This document shows, piece after piece, positions 2,753-39,417 of a DNA stretch of 40,288 nucleotides (position 1 is its first letter; the number at the start of each line of letters is the position of its first letter). Source of the DNA: a virus. The notes below the pieces were generated by a model that did no database searches, had not been told where the DNA came from, and saw only the letters and a list, made by a program, of their open reading frames with translations. Both the position numbers and the translations under genes were made by a program. The stretch covers positions 1-40,288 of the IMG/VR virus record IMGVR_UViG_3300045973_000239; one strand, 5' to 3'.

Positions 2753-2896
2753 ATGATCATCGACCCCAAGCTCCAAGCCGCTATCGAGGCGCAACGCGCG
2801 CGAATCGAGAAGCTGCGCAAGAAGCGCCACATGGATGCGCTGCTCCGCGTCGCCAAAGGGACCTCGCCCATCATCAACCTGAAGAAGACATCATGA
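2753..2896 (+). CDS. Small basic helical protein (47 aa)
   Basis: This short reading frame lies between two genes: the preceding stop is 4 bases upstream and its own TGA overlaps the next ATG (ATGA). The product is a single charged helix, with Arg/Lys-rich residues 14-27, and has no known family. The tight packing supports expression. A longer in-frame start at 2651 would overlap the previous gene by about 100 bases and is less likely. Confidence 0.6.
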   Translation: MIIDPKLQAAIEAQRARIEKLRKKRHMDALLRVAKGTSPIINLKKTS

Positions 2897-3315
2897 ACCT
2901 GAATCCCGAAGACTTCGCCGGCCCCGCCCCCAAGGCCAGGGTGAAGAAGCCGTCCAAGGCCGAAGTCCGCGCGTTGTACGAGGCGGACGAAGCCAAGCGC
3001 GTTGCGGAGTTCCGCAAGGAACTGCCGATGAAGCTGCTGCTCCTGATGGCCAAGGCCTCGGAAGTTGCCGAGACTGCGGTCCTCCCGAACGGCGACAGCG
3101 TCCGCGTCGAGTTCCGCTTCCATGACGACGACCGCGAGACCGTGTCGCTCGGCATGCTGTCCGATGAGTGGAGCCTCGACATGGTCGAGAATACCGTGCA
3201 ACGGATGATGGACGCCCGTGCTGCGGCCCGCGCCAAGCTCGAGCTGGCTCGTGAAACCTGGGACGCGCTGACGGTCGAACAGCGCGCAGCCCTGAACCTG
3301 GGGTACCGCCCGTGA
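2893..3315 (+). CDS. Hypothetical protein (140 aa)
   Basis: This soluble protein has no recognised family. The N-terminus is Pro/Lys rich, the middle (VLPNGDSVRVEFRFHDDDRE, about 64-83) is beta-like, and the C-terminal third is a long Ala-rich helix. It is translationally coupled on both sides: its ATG overlaps the previous stop, and its stop overlaps the GTG of the downstream cation transporter. Confidence 0.75.
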   Translation: MNLNPEDFAGPAPKARVKKPSKAEVRALYEADEAKRVAEFRKELPMKLLLLMAKASEVAETAVLPNGDSVRVEFRFHDDDRETVSLGMLSDEWSLDMVENTVQRMMDARAAARAKLELARETWDALTVEQRAALNLGYRP

Positions 3316-4211
3316 GTGAATCCATCAAGGCCGCTTTAACGGCAAATGCCTGCGTTGCCGGTGCCAAGACCGTCGGCGCGTACTTCACCGGGTCCGCGTC
3401 CATGGCGGCCGAGGCGATCCACAGCTTCGCTGACTGCGGCAACCAGCTGCTGCTCATGTGGGGTAAGCGAACGTCCGATCGCAAGGCCGACAAGGACCAC
3501 CCGTTCGGGTACGGCATGAACGTGTTCTTCTGGTCATTCATCGTCGCGCTGGTTCTGTTCAGCCTCGGCGGCACGTACTCGCTGTACGAAGGCGTTCACA
3601 AGCTCATGAACCCCGAGCCGCTGCAGCACACAGGCTGGGCCATCGCGGTGCTGACCCTCGGGTTCTTCCTGGAGCTGCGCTCATTCCGAACGTGTCTGGC
3701 TGAGATTCGCGAGACGTATCCCGGCAAGAACATGTTCTGGTTCTTCAAGGAGACCCGTGACCCAGCGCTGCTTGTGATCTTCGGCGAGGATCTTGCCGCG
3801 CTGCTCGGTCTTGGCATCGCTGCCGGGTTCCTTGGGCTGGCTCTGTACACCAACAATCCAGCGTTCGACGCTATGGGTTCAATCGCCGTCGGGGTGCTGC
3901 TCATCGTCGTTGCGATTGGGCTCTTCATCGAAACCAAGGAGCTGCTGACCGGTCAGAGCGTGGACCCATCGGTTCGCCGAGCGCTGCACCAGCTGCTGGC
4001 TGACTTCGAACCTGTGGAGCACACGTACGAGTGCCGAACCCTGCAGCTCGGTGAAGACGCGCTGTTGATGATCAGAGCCCGGTTCCGTGAGAAGGAGAAC
4101 GTGCCGCAGCTGCTCAAGGACATCAACGACCTCGAGCTGGCGATCAGCGAACAGTTCCCACAGTTCACCCAGATCTTCGTGGAACCTGACGACAAGTACC
4201 AGGACTATTGA
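3312..4211 (+). CDS. Cation diffusion facilitator (CDF) metal efflux transporter, SLC30A9-like
   Basis: This 299-residue membrane protein of the CDF family exports divalent cations such as Zn2+ in exchange for protons across the inner membrane. It has about six hydrophobic segments (near 5-25, 31-50, 71-92, 107-124, 152-178, 184-206) and a cytoplasmic C-terminal domain (210-299). Diagnostic features are AEAIHSFADCGNQ in TM2, with the H37-xxx-D41 metal pair, the HPFGYG loop (63-68), and NPAFDAMGS before TM6. TM5 has E159-D160-LAA in place of the usual HxxxD, as I recall for the SLC30A9/ZnT9 branch. GTG start, coupled to the upstream stop; a terminator follows. It is an unusual cargo for a phage. 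The family call is secure; the metal is not known. Confidence 0.9.
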   Translation: MSESIKAALTANACVAGAKTVGAYFTGSASMAAEAIHSFADCGNQLLLMWGKRTSDRKADKDHPFGYGMNVFFWSFIVALVLFSLGGTYSLYEGVHKLMNPEPLQHTGWAIAVLTLGFFLELRSFRTCLAEIRETYPGKNMFWFFKETRDPALLVIFGEDLAALLGLGIAAGFLGLALYTNNPAFDAMGSIAVGVLLIVVAIGLFIETKELLTGQSVDPSVRRALHQLLADFEPVEHTYECRTLQLGEDALLMIRARFREKENVPQLLKDINDLELAISEQFPQFTQIFVEPDDKYQDY

Positions 4212-4230: not shown

Positions 4231-4252
4231 CCAGGGACCTTCGGGTCCCTGG
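4231..4252 (+). terminator. Terminator hairpin after the CDF gene
   Basis: CCAGGGACC (4231-4239) pairs perfectly with GGTCCCTGG (4244-4252) around a TTCG loop. The whole 22-base hairpin occurs again unchanged at 37360-37381. It lacks a long T-tract. Confidence 0.75.
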
Positions 4253-4281: not shown

Positions 4282-4315
4282 GTGACCTCCGTGGTGGTCT
4301 GAGTACAATCAGACC
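4282..4315 (+). promoter_or_regulatory. Promoter with operator-like inverted repeat for the ACP gene
   Basis: A -10 box TACAAT (4304-4309) has a weak -35 candidate GTGACC (4282-4287) with a 16-base spacer. The -10 box lies inside a perfect inverted repeat, GGTCTGA (4296-4302) and TCAGACC (4309-4315), separated by 6 bases. That position suits a repressor or other regulator. CCGTTACA (4314-4321) follows directly. Confidence 0.6.
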
Positions 4316-4332
4316 GTTACAAAGGAGACACT

Positions 4333-4578
4333 GTGAAACCAACACTTGACCGCATCATTGCTCTTATCGTGGACTACGGCTGCGATGAAGATGTGCACAT
4401 CACCGCCGAAACCCGCCTCTTGGAAGACCTTCAGTTCGACAGCCTCGATTTGGTCGAGGTCGTCATGATGGTTGAAGACGAGTATGGTCTCGAATTCTCA
4501 GACGACGAGGCGTATGGTGTGGTCACCGTGCAGGACCTTTTTGACACCGCCATTCGACTCTCTGGAGAATCAACATGA
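4333..4578 (+). CDS. Acyl carrier protein
   Basis: This 81-residue acidic four-helix protein carries acyl chains on a phosphopantetheine arm attached by a host transferase. The signature FDSLDLVEVVMMVEDEYG (35-52) matches the ACP helix-II motif DSLDxVExVMxxEExF; Ser37 is the predicted attachment site. The length is typical for bacterial ACP. GTG start with a strong Shine-Dalgarno site (AAGGAG, 4322-4327). Its stop overlaps the next ATG. No fatty-acid synthesis gene is nearby, so it may alter host lipid metabolism or serve an acyl-transfer step; this is inference. Confidence 0.93.
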   Translation: MKPTLDRIIALIVDYGCDEDVHITAETRLLEDLQFDSLDLVEVVMMVEDEYGLEFSDDEAYGVVTVQDLFDTAIRLSGEST

Positions 4579-4970
4579 TGAACATCCGCCAACGTTCTGT
4601 GAACGTCAATCGCCTCGAGCTGCTTGCGAAGCTGCGCACCAATCTCGAAACCCACAAGGCCGAGTACGCTGAAGCTCTCGCCGAGTATCAGCAACGTCTG
4701 CTCGATGACCTGAAGCTCGCAGCCAAGCGGGTCTCGAAGGTCACGGACCCGACCGAGCTGAAGAACTTCCGCTTCTCCGTGCCGTTCCCGCAGAACCACG
4801 AGGCTGACTACGCCGAGGTCATCGAGATGCTCGAGATGTCAGTGGACGAGAACATCAACCTCGACTCCGAGTCGTTCAAGGCGTACATCAAGAACGAGTG
4901 GTCATGGCAAGGTCAGTTCACGGCGGCCAAGATGGCGTACGTGACCGCTGGCTCGTCGCTGACCCTCTAA
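4575..4970 (+). CDS. Hypothetical protein (131 aa), coupled to ACP
   Basis: This soluble protein has a helical, charged first half (about 12-60). Its second half contains VPFPQNHEADYAEVIEMLEM (about 69-88) and a Trp-containing segment, EWSWQGQF. I recall similar proteins as uncharacterised in other large phages, but no function is known to me. The ATG overlaps the ACP stop (ATGA), so the two are probably co-translated. ATG at 4578 is an alternative start. Confidence 0.75.
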   Translation: MMNIRQRSVNVNRLELLAKLRTNLETHKAEYAEALAEYQQRLLDDLKLAAKRVSKVTDPTELKNFRFSVPFPQNHEADYAEVIEMLEMSVDENINLDSESFKAYIKNEWSWQGQFTAAKMAYVTAGSSLTL

Positions 4971-4979
4971 GGACGCGCC

Positions 4980-5426
4980 ATGTACGTTCTTCGTGGGGCA
5001 GACGGCACTATCAAAACAGTCGAGGAAGCCATGGCCGACCAGGCGGCTGCGCGTGAGGCGATCAACACTGACGCGCAGACCATGTACGTTCTTCGTTGGC
5101 CAGACGGCACCTACAATCTCCGCAGCGGATTCGAGGCGAACCTCACGGAAGCGACTCGGTATCCGACTATCCAGGAAGCTATGGCCGCACGCGAGGAGAT
5201 CAACACCGACGCGCAGATCATGTCGTTGGAGGAAGCCCTGGCCGTCGAAGAATCCCGAGCAGTTTCACTGCAGGAGCTGGTGGAAGCGGTTGATGCAGCG
5301 ACACGAACCATCACGGTCTGCGTGCCCAGCACTGACTACTACCGCAGCTCCGATGCGTGGACCGAAGAGACGCTGACGTTCGTCGATGCTGGGCATCTGC
5401 TCGAGCTGTTGAAGGAGTTGCGATGA
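4980..5426 (+). CDS. Hypothetical protein with internal duplication (148 aa)
   Basis: No family is recognised. The first part is built from related units. MYVLRGADGT at residue 1 recurs as MYVLRWPDGT at 35. The segment AREAINTDAQTM before the second copy recurs as AREEINTDAQIM before a third, degenerate copy (MSLEEAL). At the DNA level the blocks at 4981-5008 and 5082-5110 are nearly identical, so the duplication is fairly recent. The C-terminal half (about 90-148) is unrelated to the repeats. It ends with an ATGA overlap with the next gene. Confidence 0.75.
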   Translation: MYVLRGADGTIKTVEEAMADQAAAREAINTDAQTMYVLRWPDGTYNLRSGFEANLTEATRYPTIQEAMAAREEINTDAQIMSLEEALAVEESRAVSLQELVEAVDAATRTITVCVPSTDYYRSSDAWTEETLTFVDAGHLLELLKELR

Positions 5427-5725
5427 GCTCGGAGTGCATGATCCCTGGCTCTGATGAGTTCCGCTTAGATGCGCTCGATGAGCTCATTGCAATGCACGAT
5501 CGTGAGAAAACGATTCTGCAACTACGCGAAAAAGCGCTGCGGGAAAAACTCGCGGCGCTAAATGCCGAGCGGCAAAATCTCTGCGCACATTCTTCGACGA
5601 TTGAAGAGTCATCGTACCACGAAGGAAACTACGACGACGTGGCTCGGTCCTTCTACACTGTGAAGTGCCGACGCTGCGGGAAGGTGGTGAAAGAATGGGA
5701 CAAGGCACACAGCTGGTACGGATGA
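5423..5725 (+). CDS. Putative zinc-binding protein (100 aa)
   Basis: The N-terminal half (15-52) is a predicted coiled-coil helix. The C-terminal half has C54-x-H56 and C82-xx-C85 (KCRRCGK), arranged like a small treble-clef or zinc-ribbon site. Function is unknown. A Shine-Dalgarno site (AAGGAG, 5412-5417) precedes the ATG, which overlaps the upstream stop. An earlier in-frame start at 5357 would overlap the previous gene and lacks such a site. Confidence 0.7.
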   Translation: MSSECMIPGSDEFRLDALDELIAMHDREKTILQLREKALREKLAALNAERQNLCAHSSTIEESSYHEGNYDDVARSFYTVKCRRCGKVVKEWDKAHSWYG

Positions 5726-6228
5726 TGAAGTACTCGATTCTTCAGTCTGGGGATATCATCCCCATTTCCGCTTCTGCAGCGGCACATGCTCGTGAAGTTG
5801 CAGGTGCCAAGGTTCAGCTGTTCCTTGGGTTGCAGTGTGAGTTCACCCACAACGAAATCCTGCTTGCATGCGGATATCCAGTTGACATTCCTGATCCAGC
5901 TAGAAAGTGCAGCTGGGACCGTTCGCTGCACGGGCAATTGCAGGACGACAAGGTGGCTACCTTCTTGAATTCGACCGGGGAAGTTGGATCTACGATTTCG
6001 AAGTCGCACACCATCTCTGGAACAGAGTTCGACCACTGGTCACGGCTGGCGAAGGCTGGGCAAGACACAGTCATCCACAGTTTCGAATACACTTCTCCTC
6101 AACATGATGCGGTTGTGTATCGTGGCGCCATCTCTTTCTTGCTCTGGTCGCCATTCCAAAGAACTGGTCAATCCTCATACTTTATGGTTCGACGTGAAGC
6201 CTACAATTACAACCTCCTTCAAGGTTGA
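5722..6228 (+). CDS. Hypothetical protein (168 aa)
   Basis: This soluble protein is of unknown function, with mixed alpha/beta sequence and several aromatic-rich strands in its last third. No motif is recognised. I place the start at 5722 because ATG overlaps the preceding TGA, as elsewhere in this cassette; an upstream ATG at 5695 with a partial Shine-Dalgarno site is possible. Base use is slightly richer in A and T than in neighbouring genes, which may indicate separate acquisition. Confidence 0.7.
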   Translation: MMKYSILQSGDIIPISASAAAHAREVAGAKVQLFLGLQCEFTHNEILLACGYPVDIPDPARKCSWDRSLHGQLQDDKVATFLNSTGEVGSTISKSHTISGTEFDHWSRLAKAGQDTVIHSFEYTSPQHDAVVYRGAISFLLWSPFQRTGQSSYFMVRREAYNYNLLQG

Positions 6229-6252
6229 GTTGTAACGGTCACTTGTTACAAT
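6225..6252 (+). promoter_or_regulatory. Sigma70-like promoter for the MazG-like gene
   Basis: TTGAGT (6225-6230), a 16-base spacer and TACAAT (6247-6252) resemble a host-type promoter. The inverted motif TGTAACGG (6231-6238) lies in the spacer. The 51-base leader contains a hairpin (CTACTC 6267-6272 with GAGTGG 6277-6282) and a GGGAG ribosome site at 6290-6294. Confidence 0.65.
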
Positions 6253-6303
6253 GAAGTTACTCCTTGCTACTCAGCCGAGTGGCTTCAACGGGAGACTAAC
6301 TTT

Positions 6304-6870
6304 ATGACGACTCTTGACCTCAACGCTCTGCCTGATGAATTCGACTTCGAGCAACTCATCAACGACATGCTCCTCGCCCCCAGTGGAAACTGGGTCGCTG
6401 ACAACTATGACATGCACGAGAAGTTCGGCGTCACCGACGCTGTCGACAAGCTCGATGCAACCAAGCTCCTGACCTTCCTCAAGTTCCGCCTGGACTTCCT
6501 GCAGGAAGAGCTCAACGAAGCTAGGCTCGGGTACGACAAGCTCGTTGGTCTGCAAGCGACTGAAATCGCCACTGATGCCGTGCTCGCAGAGGGCGATCTG
6601 GCCGCTGAAGACATCGTCGACGCGATGATCGATCTGTGCGTTGTCGCGATTGGCACGCTGAACGCCTTCCAAGTCGATGCCTATGAAGCCTGGGACCGCG
6701 TCCATGTCGCGAACATGACCAAGGAAGTCGGCATCAAGGCCAGTCGTCCGAATCCGCTCGGTCTGCCTGATCTGATCAAGCCAGCTGGCTGGGTTGGTCC
6801 TCGCCACGACGACAACCTTGGCATCCTGCCGCGCCTGTACGGTGGCATCGAACAGCCCTTCGACGAGTAA
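6304..6870 (+). CDS. MazG/PRA-PH-like NTP pyrophosphohydrolase
   Basis: This 188-residue protein appears to belong to the all-alpha NTP pyrophosphohydrolase superfamily (MazG, HisE, dUTPase-like), which hydrolyses nucleotides to monophosphates and pyrophosphate using Mg2+. The metal-binding motifs are visible: E68-E69-L-N-E72 (EExxE) and, after a spacer, E102-D103-I-V-D106 with D110. The later segment (W130-DRVHVANMTKE) is typical of the phage members. It could clean the nucleotide pool or act on (p)ppGpp-like signals; substrate is unknown. It has its own promoter, and its TAA stop forms part of the next gene's late promoter. Confidence 0.8.
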   Translation: MTTLDLNALPDEFDFEQLINDMLLAPSGNWVADNYDMHEKFGVTDAVDKLDATKLLTFLKFRLDFLQEELNEARLGYDKLVGLQATEIATDAVLAEGDLAAEDIVDAMIDLCVVAIGTLNAFQVDAYEAWDRVHVANMTKEVGIKASRPNPLGLPDLIKPAGWVGPRHDDNLGILPRLYGGIEQPFDE

Positions 6871-9735: not shown

Positions 9736-9839
9736 CGCCAGGTCCTCACGTCAAACGTGAGGGTCCACATCACCTCAAGGGTCTTGAAGTACATGGCCAT
9801 GAGGACATCGAACTGAGATGGTTTGGTAGTGTGTGTCAT
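9732..9839 (-). CDS. Possible tiny protein (35 aa)
   Basis: This minus-strand ATG frame sits directly behind the LysM gene, with TAAGGAAC (stop plus Shine-Dalgarno) 6 bases before the ATG. It encodes MTHTTKPSQFDVLMAMYFK and a Trp-containing tail. Its stop overlaps that of the convergent lipoprotein gene. It fills the 110-base gap almost exactly, but it also covers the hairpin at 9744-9762, so it may be non-coding. Confidence 0.4.
   Translation of the reverse strand: MTHTTKPSQFDVLMAMYFKTLEVMWTLTFDVRTWR
9744..9762. terminator. Convergent hairpin, possible bidirectional terminator
   Basis: CCTCACGT (9744-9751) pairs perfectly with ACGTGAGG (9755-9762) around a CAA loop. It sits where plus and minus transcription converge. 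There is no T-tract. Confidence 0.5.
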
Positions 9840-19033: not shown

Positions 19034-19050
19034 GGTTCAGCGCTCCAATG

Positions 19051-19076
19051 AGAGGGACTTCGGTCCCTCTTTGCGT
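19051..19076 (+). terminator. Terminator after the sheath gene
   Basis: AGAGGGAC (19051-19058) pairs with GTCCCTCT (19063-19070) around TTCG, followed by TTGCGTTT. Confidence 0.8.
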
Positions 19077-22137: not shown

Positions 22138-22161
22138 CCTAGGGACCTGAGGGTCCCTAGG
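22138..22161 (+). terminator. Terminator hairpin, 10-bp stem
   Basis: CCTAGGGACC (22138-22147) pairs perfectly with GGTCCCTAGG (22152-22161) around TGAG. Confidence 0.78.
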
Positions 22162-37127: not shown

Positions 37128-37328
37128 ATGCTCAATCTCGCCTATGCCCTCGTCATCGCGATCCTCGTCGTCATCGGGATCGAACTCCTGATGACCCTCG
37201 GGAAGCTCGTCTCGATCGTGATGTTCATCGCGCTGGCCGTCGCCGGCCTGGTGTATCTGCTCCGGCACAACACCGGCCCGAACAGCGAAATGCCGCCCCC
37301 AAGCAAGGGGCACCGTCTCGGAGAGTGA
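37128..37328 (+). CDS. Small membrane protein (66 aa)
   Basis: Two hydrophobic segments, about 3-22 (LAYALVIAILVVIGIELLM) and 27-45, are followed by a polar tail of about 20 residues with Pro and basic residues. It is expected in the inner membrane as a hairpin. It might be a holin-like or host-membrane-active protein, but it has no lysis neighbour, so this is a guess. Start one base after the zinc-ribbon stop; a terminator follows. Confidence 0.7.
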   Translation: MLNLAYALVIAILVVIGIELLMTLGKLVSIVMFIALAVAGLVYLLRHNTGPNSEMPPPSKGHRLGE

Positions 37329-37359
37329 CAGAGCACCTCTCCGTTGCACCAGGACAGCG

Positions 37360-37381
37360 CCAGGGACCTTCGGGTCCCTGG
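37360..37381 (+). terminator. Terminator hairpin identical to that at 4231-4252
   Basis: CCAGGGACC (37360-37368) pairs with GGTCCCTGG (37373-37381) around TTCG. It closes the accessory cassette before the gp32 region. No open frame is evident between here and gp32; the 212 bases hold promoters and leader structure. Confidence 0.75.
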
Positions 37382-37450
37382 CTTGTATGTCTCAACACAA
37401 ACACCTCTGACACCAACCGGTGAGCCCTGAATCCTGATCCTCGTTACAAG

Positions 37451-38810: not shown

Positions 38811-39417
38811 GCTGCCAACCTGCGCTGGAGCCTCTAGAGATAGGGGCTCCAGATGTGAGTGTCGAGCCCAGTGAGTTGTAGTTCAACCCATGCTCACGGC
38901 AGAAGGTTTTGAGGGAGACGACCGAGTGAACAATACCTTGCGGATCACGCAACAACCAGCTTTTGATGTGCCGACCAGGACCGCCTGTCATCGACGCACT
39001 GATGCCTGGTTGCGGCTTACCGCGCTTTGCCTCGCTCATTCGTCGCTTGGCTTCCTCAGACTTGGGCTTCCGCATCTTTTGCTTGGTTTCTTCAGTGTGT
39101 TGGTACCCCAACGGGCCTCTACCACCAAGGGTCAAGTTGCAGAGCGGACCTCCCTCGTAACGCTTCCTGCCGTAAAGTTTGATGAGCCGCTCTTCCTCAT
39201 CGTAGGCTTCGTTCTCGTCGTTGAACTCCTGAAGAACCTCAATGAGAGGGTCGCAACCGCCGCGTTGAACCTTCTTGATGGTGTTCTCCAGAAGTTTGTT
39301 CTCATGCACTCCAGTGTTCGCTGCATGTAGATGATATTGGGACCGATCGCCCTGACCCTTGCCAATGTAAAACGGCACACGGGTTTCAGGGTAGAGGTAT
39401 TGATAGACGTAGAACAT
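38773..39417 (-). CDS. GIY-YIG homing endonuclease
   Basis: This minus-strand gene encodes 214 residues. The GIY-YIG nuclease domain is at the N-terminus (MFYVYQYLYP, then PFYIGKGQGDR with R25), with a later catalytic-type Glu in the NDENEAYDEEERLI region. The middle has NUMOD3-like repeats (EETKQKMRKPKSEEAKRR). The end (GIVHSVVSLKTFCREHGLN...SAGWQL) is a NUMOD1-like DNA-binding helix-turn region. Such enzymes cut alleles lacking them and copy themselves in. It is a free-standing gene between gp32 and uvsX with its own late promoter. The ATG at 39417 has GAGGAG upstream; a longer frame from 39555 would run through uvsX. Confidence 0.88.
   Translation of the reverse strand: MFYVYQYLYPETRVPFYIGKGQGDRSQYHLHAANTGVHENKLLENTIKKVQRGGCDPLIEVLQEFNDENEAYDEEERLIKLYGRKRYEGGPLCNLTLGGRGPLGYQHTEETKQKMRKPKSEEAKRRMSEAKRGKPQPGISASMTGGPGRHIKSWLLRDPQGIVHSVVSLKTFCREHGLNYNSLGSTLTSGAPISRGSSAGWQLMQASARTTSCL
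38825..38852 (+). terminator. Hairpin after the gp32 operon
   Basis: CTGGAGCC (38825-38832) pairs with GGCTCCAG (38845-38852). It lies 15 bases after the plus-strand stop, inside the endonuclease frame. It could end the gp32 message. The loop is 12 bases and there is no T-tract. Confidence 0.45.

Follow-up and report, generated by a model that had tools for sequence, protein, structure and literature searches.

The locus and its phage setting

The window, by which we mean the whole stretch of 40,288 bases that was analysed, is a virus record and a piece of a T4-like phage genome. Its main features are listed below by position in the window; L103 is a related phage contig that is compared further on.

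150-1421: gp23 capsid gene (profile match)
2893-3315, plus strand: upstream phage gene of unknown function, with its stop TGA at 3313-3315; its homologue lies at L103 8614-9021
3312-4211, plus strand: ZnT9-like cation diffusion facilitator (CDF) gene, 299 aa, GTG start (open reading frame, profiles and model)
3420-3434, plus strand: TM2 metal-site motif H37-x3-D41, with E34 three residues before it; invariant in 35 homologues
3777-3791, plus strand: TM5 motif I156-x-x-E159-D160, in place of the canonical HxxxD (column counts in phage and bacterial sequences)
4231-4252, plus strand: UUCG-loop hairpin of 9 bp, terminator-like, without a T-tract (fold -19.9 kcal/mol)
4282-4309, plus strand: promoter-like site GTGACC-16-TACAAT, a weak consensus match; TACAAT is kept at the equivalent place in L103
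4333-4578, plus strand: acyl carrier protein (ACP) gene with a DSL motif, beyond the hairpin from the CDF gene (profile match); absent from L103
30227-31762: T4-type terminase gene (profile match)

The phage origin of the window is secure because it holds both the gp23 capsid gene and the T4-type terminase gene, and further phage genes are found across it. By capsid the nearest named phages are Xanthomonas phage XacN1 (48.5%) and the Stenotrophomonas phages CM1 and RAS14 (46%), and for the terminase, too, XacN1 matches best. Closer relatives exist in IMG/VR on contigs of up to 350 kb; taken with the capsid and terminase matches, they indicate that the window is most probably one part of a jumbo phage genome. 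A tRNA-Glu (CTC) is located at 37262-37351 on the minus strand, against the direction of most genes.

The initial annotation described the CDF gene as coupled to the phage gene that precedes it and as closed by a phage-type terminator. The coupling agrees with the sequence, as the GTG start overlaps the upstream stop in GTGA (3312-3315), which makes stop-start coupled translation likely, and an SD-like GGGG lies 8 nt 5' of the GTG. The UUCG hairpin is real, but it has no T-tract and, as discussed below, it is not an adaptation for the CDF gene. Strong hairpins with loops of 3-5 bases directly follow genes of the window, mostly without a T-run (1457-1480, 4231-4252, 9741-9765, 19050-19071, 22138-22161, 37359-37382 and 38825-38852), and this family probably represents the usual transcript ends of the phage.

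Several other observations were made in this region. A promoter-like element, CTCGGGATCGAGTTAAGATAG, is repeated at 1755-1790 and 2240-2275, before successive small genes that follow the capsid gene, and the gene at 2287-2748 contains an in-frame 54-nt tandem duplication (2379-2486, 80% identical). ACP-like genes are found downstream of the capsid gene in the relatives L116, L123, L124, L126, L133, L134 and L154 and not in L103, and a query of viral contigs with the ACP gave no match. In the contig L011 a rIIB-like protein (5188-6477) has an ACP domain seemingly fused at its C-terminus (GADSLDLVELVM) whose sequence, compared over 67 aa, is 43% identical to the ACP of the window. A rIIA-like gene (L011 2879-5173) precedes it, both names having been given by eye.

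The CDF protein and its metal site

Judged by its profiles and predicted structure, the open reading frame at 3312-4211 is a complete and intact gene of the CDF family, which upholds the initial reading of a complete transporter. The protein scores 134.8 bits against Pfam Cation_efflux PF01545 (cut-off 26.6) and 116 bits against the NCBIfam CDF profile TIGR01297 (cut-off 82.35), and a sequence search of the PDB returned YiiP/FieF. An AlphaFold model built from 35 aligned homologues, phage and bacterial, has a mean pLDDT of 91.5 and contains six long membrane helices followed by a cytoplasmic C-terminal domain, the architecture that characterizes the family. This domain, also claimed at the outset to be full, is confidently folded as alpha-beta-beta-alpha-beta (helix 219-231, strands 235-246 and 249-258, helix 264-281, strand 285-292). 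In a Foldseek search YiiP was the first match (5vrf, E 4.5e-13; 8f6e, TM-score 0.74), and ZnT7, ZnT1, ZnT3 and ZnT8 were also among the matches. At E < 0.001, a library of predicted structures of viral proteins gave only two CDFs, which belong to a giant virus and to a plant virus, and no phage CDF.

The TM2 metal pair H37/D41, to which the initial annotation had drawn attention, is intact. H37, D41, E34, E159 and D186 are conserved in 35/35 homologues and D160 in 34/35, and site residues are invariant down to 31% identity. The site is half canonical, however. The TM2 pair is kept, but the TM5 HxxxD of canonical Zn- or Fe/Zn-CDFs such as YiiP, ZitB and FieF is absent, with I156 replacing the histidine, a change that was missing from the first reading. 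Residue 156 is I, V or L in 35/35 homologues and His in none of them.

The fold (TM-score up to 0.74), the position of the TM2 site and the order of domains are shared with YiiP/FieF, the Zn2+/H+ antiporter of E. coli and Shewanella. In contrast to the antiporter, the window CDF has I156 aligned with H153 in TM5 and Y67 aligned with H75, while D68 and H71 of YiiP align with D60 and H63. None of the YiiP site C histidines is kept in this sequence alignment. In YiiP, D68, H71 and H75 belong to site B.

The DxxxD in TM5 by which Mn-CDFs are defined (PMC1868760) is not found in the window CDF. Its combination of TM2 HxxxD and TM5 V/IxxxD is found, and V/IxxxD in TM5 is the pattern of ZnT9-like proteins (PMC1868760, Montanini 2007; PMC11335279, Ge et al. 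2024), a mixed prokaryotic-eukaryotic cluster according to Montanini et al. (PMC1868760). The window CDF fits this cluster (SLC30A9/ZnT9) as assigned by the TM2/TM5 motif pattern, and six helices plus a C-terminal domain are common to both. Compared with ZnT9 by this pattern it is a short form (299 aa) that is carried by a phage and has no mitochondrial presequence. Bacterial homologues that show the ZnT9-like pattern reach about 50% identity with it.

Either Zn2+ or Mn2+ had been proposed as the metal. Since I156/D160 in TM5 is the ZnT9-like signature, Zn2+ is the better guess, and Mn2+ is less likely because the metal demonstrated in the cluster is Zn2+, which C. elegans ZnT9 (SLC-30A9) binds and exports (PMC8901913). 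In the literature searched there was no bacterial ZnT9-like CDF of known function, and the choice of substrate thus extrapolates from animals. With the TM5 histidine absent, site B partial and site C gone, we infer the substrate and place Zn2+ first.

Insertion site, origin and distribution

L103 (10.2 kb) is the closest relative of the window phage by capsid, at 88% identity. It has the order capsid gene, homologue of the 2287-2748 gene, homologue of the 2893-3315 gene, UUCG hairpin (L103 9040-9063), TACAAT promoter-like site and homologue of the 4575-4970 gene. Both the CDF gene and the ACP gene are missing from L103, and the homologue of the upstream gene directly precedes the hairpin. When the flanks of the window were joined without the CDF gene, they aligned to L103 with a score of 97 (shuffled maximum 52). 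The part 3' of the CDF stop gave a local score of 48 (shuffled 27), with the match to L103 starting within a few bases of the stop codon. By this comparison the CDF gene is a precise start-to-stop cassette, placed between the stop of the upstream gene and a hairpin that is also present in L103. Because L103 has the same hairpin at the equivalent place and no CDF gene, the hairpin was not acquired together with the CDF gene and is not evidence of adaptation for it.

No CDF was found in 33 contigs of capsid relatives (0/33), nine of which are 234-350 kb long, the smaller and partly partial contigs weighing less for absence, and this points to gain rather than loss at the window site. Short major-capsid-like pieces that lie apart from the capsid gene were seen by eye at about 13050-13150 of L131, just upstream of the 4575-4970 homologue, and were found upstream of the CDF in L013 (6525-6896) and L014 (6894-7466).

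Orthologues of the CDF (57-71% identity) are found in the phage contigs L002 (30 kb, about 70%), L011 (174 kb, 65%) and L003 (350 kb, 57%). More than 100 kb separate the CDF from the capsid gene in L011 and L003, where it therefore occupies a different genome site. These two contigs also share a gene (78% identical) that lies no more than about 8 kb away from the CDF, on opposite sides of it. Phylogeny against bacterial and phage CDFs had been named beforehand as a check. A tree of bacterial and phage relatives was built by maximum likelihood with a quick search and SH-aLRT as its only support measure. In it the four phage copies form one clade (SH-aLRT 100) separate from bacteria and adjoining Betaproteobacteria (Sphaerotilaceae; SH-aLRT 86). 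Identity to the nearest known bacterial relatives is about 50%, and no closer copy was found in 399 sampled genomes of the order Burkholderiales. Among the four phage copies pN is 0.22-0.31 and pS is 0.73-0.89, the latter being saturated, which indicates that the protein has long been under constraint. The GC content of the gene is 0.60, and that of neighbouring genes is 0.52-0.65. As far as the sequences can tell, the gene is bacterial-derived and selectively maintained in the phage. Like an auxiliary metabolic gene, it is host-derived, lies on a viral contig with viral genes on both sides and is under constraint.

Other phage CDFs fall in separate groups of the tree, and the phage label needs at least 3 changes on it, a count to which the outgroup contributes in part, as L157, a canonical CDF of a 735-kb phage, has a very long branch. 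Since this branch inflates the count, a careful reading is that ZnT9-like genes appear to have entered phages more than once, the number being uncertain.

A complete CDF had been called rare in phages. Only 15 of 50,697 phage records have CDF matches (three of them huge-phage metagenome assemblies), so rarity holds, but there are other cases: ZnT9-like CDFs, which fall in several tree groups, are carried by a further 15 or more IMG/VR phage contigs. The more distant ones (31-40%) are on phage contigs as long as 735 kb. All these counts are lower bounds because the scans depend on a conserved peptide pattern. Phage CDFs were also already known as PHROG 7308 (PMC12713726), a moron/AMG family named 'cation efflux protein', which has in common with the window CDF that it is phage-carried. 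The window CDF matches it with E 3.9e-16 in two stretches, the best covering only residues 4-120, and appears at best to be a divergent member. The ZnT9-like CDFs of LR756500 (462 kb), LR756501 (735 kb) and the IMG/VR contigs L004 and L012-L022 share the subfamily pattern and the site residues; the window CDF differs from them in being only 31-40% identical and in a separate tree group. CDFs in phages are sporadic but recurrent, and no conserved neighbour was found across the phage groups except in a few near relatives (L013, L014).

LR756501.1 (W02, 735 kb) has two CDFs, at 351556-352146 and 655021-655623, one ZnT9-like and the other (L157) with the canonical TM5 HxxxD. Two sets of candidates were discarded. 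OR846591 (L010, INPHARED, 'Enterococcus phage Efs 1-1-1') looks like host DNA, with fabI-, fabF- and fabZ-like genes adjoining the CDF; it is the one record examined among those from Listeria, Staphylococcus and Enterococcus. The first viral scan also gave L005-L007, which are spurious because they share nothing but the peptide KNMFWFFK.

Proposed role and alternatives

The reading we favour, with a probability of roughly 0.6, is that a bacterial ZnT9-like CDF gene was taken up by a T4-like jumbo phage, where it is an accessory (auxiliary) gene and has stayed functional, probably for the export of Zn2+. In terms of the arrangement seen in the sequence, translation would be coupled to the upstream stop through GTGA and the transcript would end at the pre-existing hairpin. 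Going by the family and the model, the protein would be located in the inner membrane of the host as a six-helix YiiP-like dimer and, working as a proton antiporter, would move a divalent metal (most probably Zn2+) out of the cell. H37 and D41 of TM2 and D160 of TM5 would be the transport residues, and E159 possibly substitutes for the absent histidine. During infection the CDF might protect against free Zn2+ in the cytoplasm or tune its level, for instance where metal comes from degraded host components, although this is speculative. Against this reading are the missing TM5 histidine, the reduction of YiiP site B to D60 and H63, and the lack of a CDF in the majority of close relatives.

A different main substrate for the same fold, Mn2+, Fe2+ or even a monovalent cation, is unlikely, with the loss of the TM5 HxxxD in its favour. 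The ZnT9-like cluster lies near the Mn-CDFs in one tree, with a weak bootstrap of 23 (PMC1868760), and the Na+/H+ antiporter MceT, a CDF with a changed site and its TM5 histidine replaced, carries Na+. However, MceT has lost the TM2 pair too (YS), whereas the window CDF keeps H37/D41, Mn-CDFs carry the TM5 DxxxD, and Zn2+ is the cation bound and exported by C. elegans ZnT9 (PMC8901913). Roles other than transport, as a membrane scaffold or metal sensor only, are very unlikely. Montanini et al. (PMC1868760) proposed that ZnT9-like proteins have further or other roles because their active-site residues are incompletely conserved, but C. elegans SLC-30A9 also lacks the TM5 histidine and is nonetheless a Zn2+ exporter that depends on its site residues (PMC8901913).

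It is improbable that the gene is a selectively neutral passenger, taken recently from a host, in frame by chance and bound to decay. Its sporadic occurrence among relatives and its presence as a single cassette where L103 has none would suit such a history, but constraint already disfavours it: there are orthologues in three other phages, synonymous change is saturated and non-synonymous change low, the four copies form a clade apart from bacteria, and the frame is full-length with the TM2 site intact. An assembly chimera, or host DNA in a virus bin, is hardly credible. The contig does come from an IMG/VR metagenome and the comparable Enterococcus 'phage' record looks like host DNA, but here phage genes lie on both sides, homology to L103 continues on either side of the CDF gene, and the closest homologues come from other phages, while the nearest bacterial gene is only about 50% identical. 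The acquired and maintained Zn2+ exporter is accordingly the account that we prefer among these.

As annotation, the gene is an unexceptional accessory gene, a case of a jumbo phage borrowing a transporter from its host. A broader idea, which we regard as doubtful, is that jumbo phages have repeatedly and separately acquired ZnT9-like Zn2+ exporters as a tool for resetting free Zn2+ in the infected cell. If true, the reset might shield phage enzymes or inactivate host functions that depend on zinc; the literature searched contained no description of such a metal-homeostasis arm of phage takeover. If expressed, the window CDF would provide a testable case of a lytic phage altering the transition-metal balance of its host. 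The small bacterial-type relatives of ZnT9 also offer material for how a CDF transports metal without the TM5 histidine.
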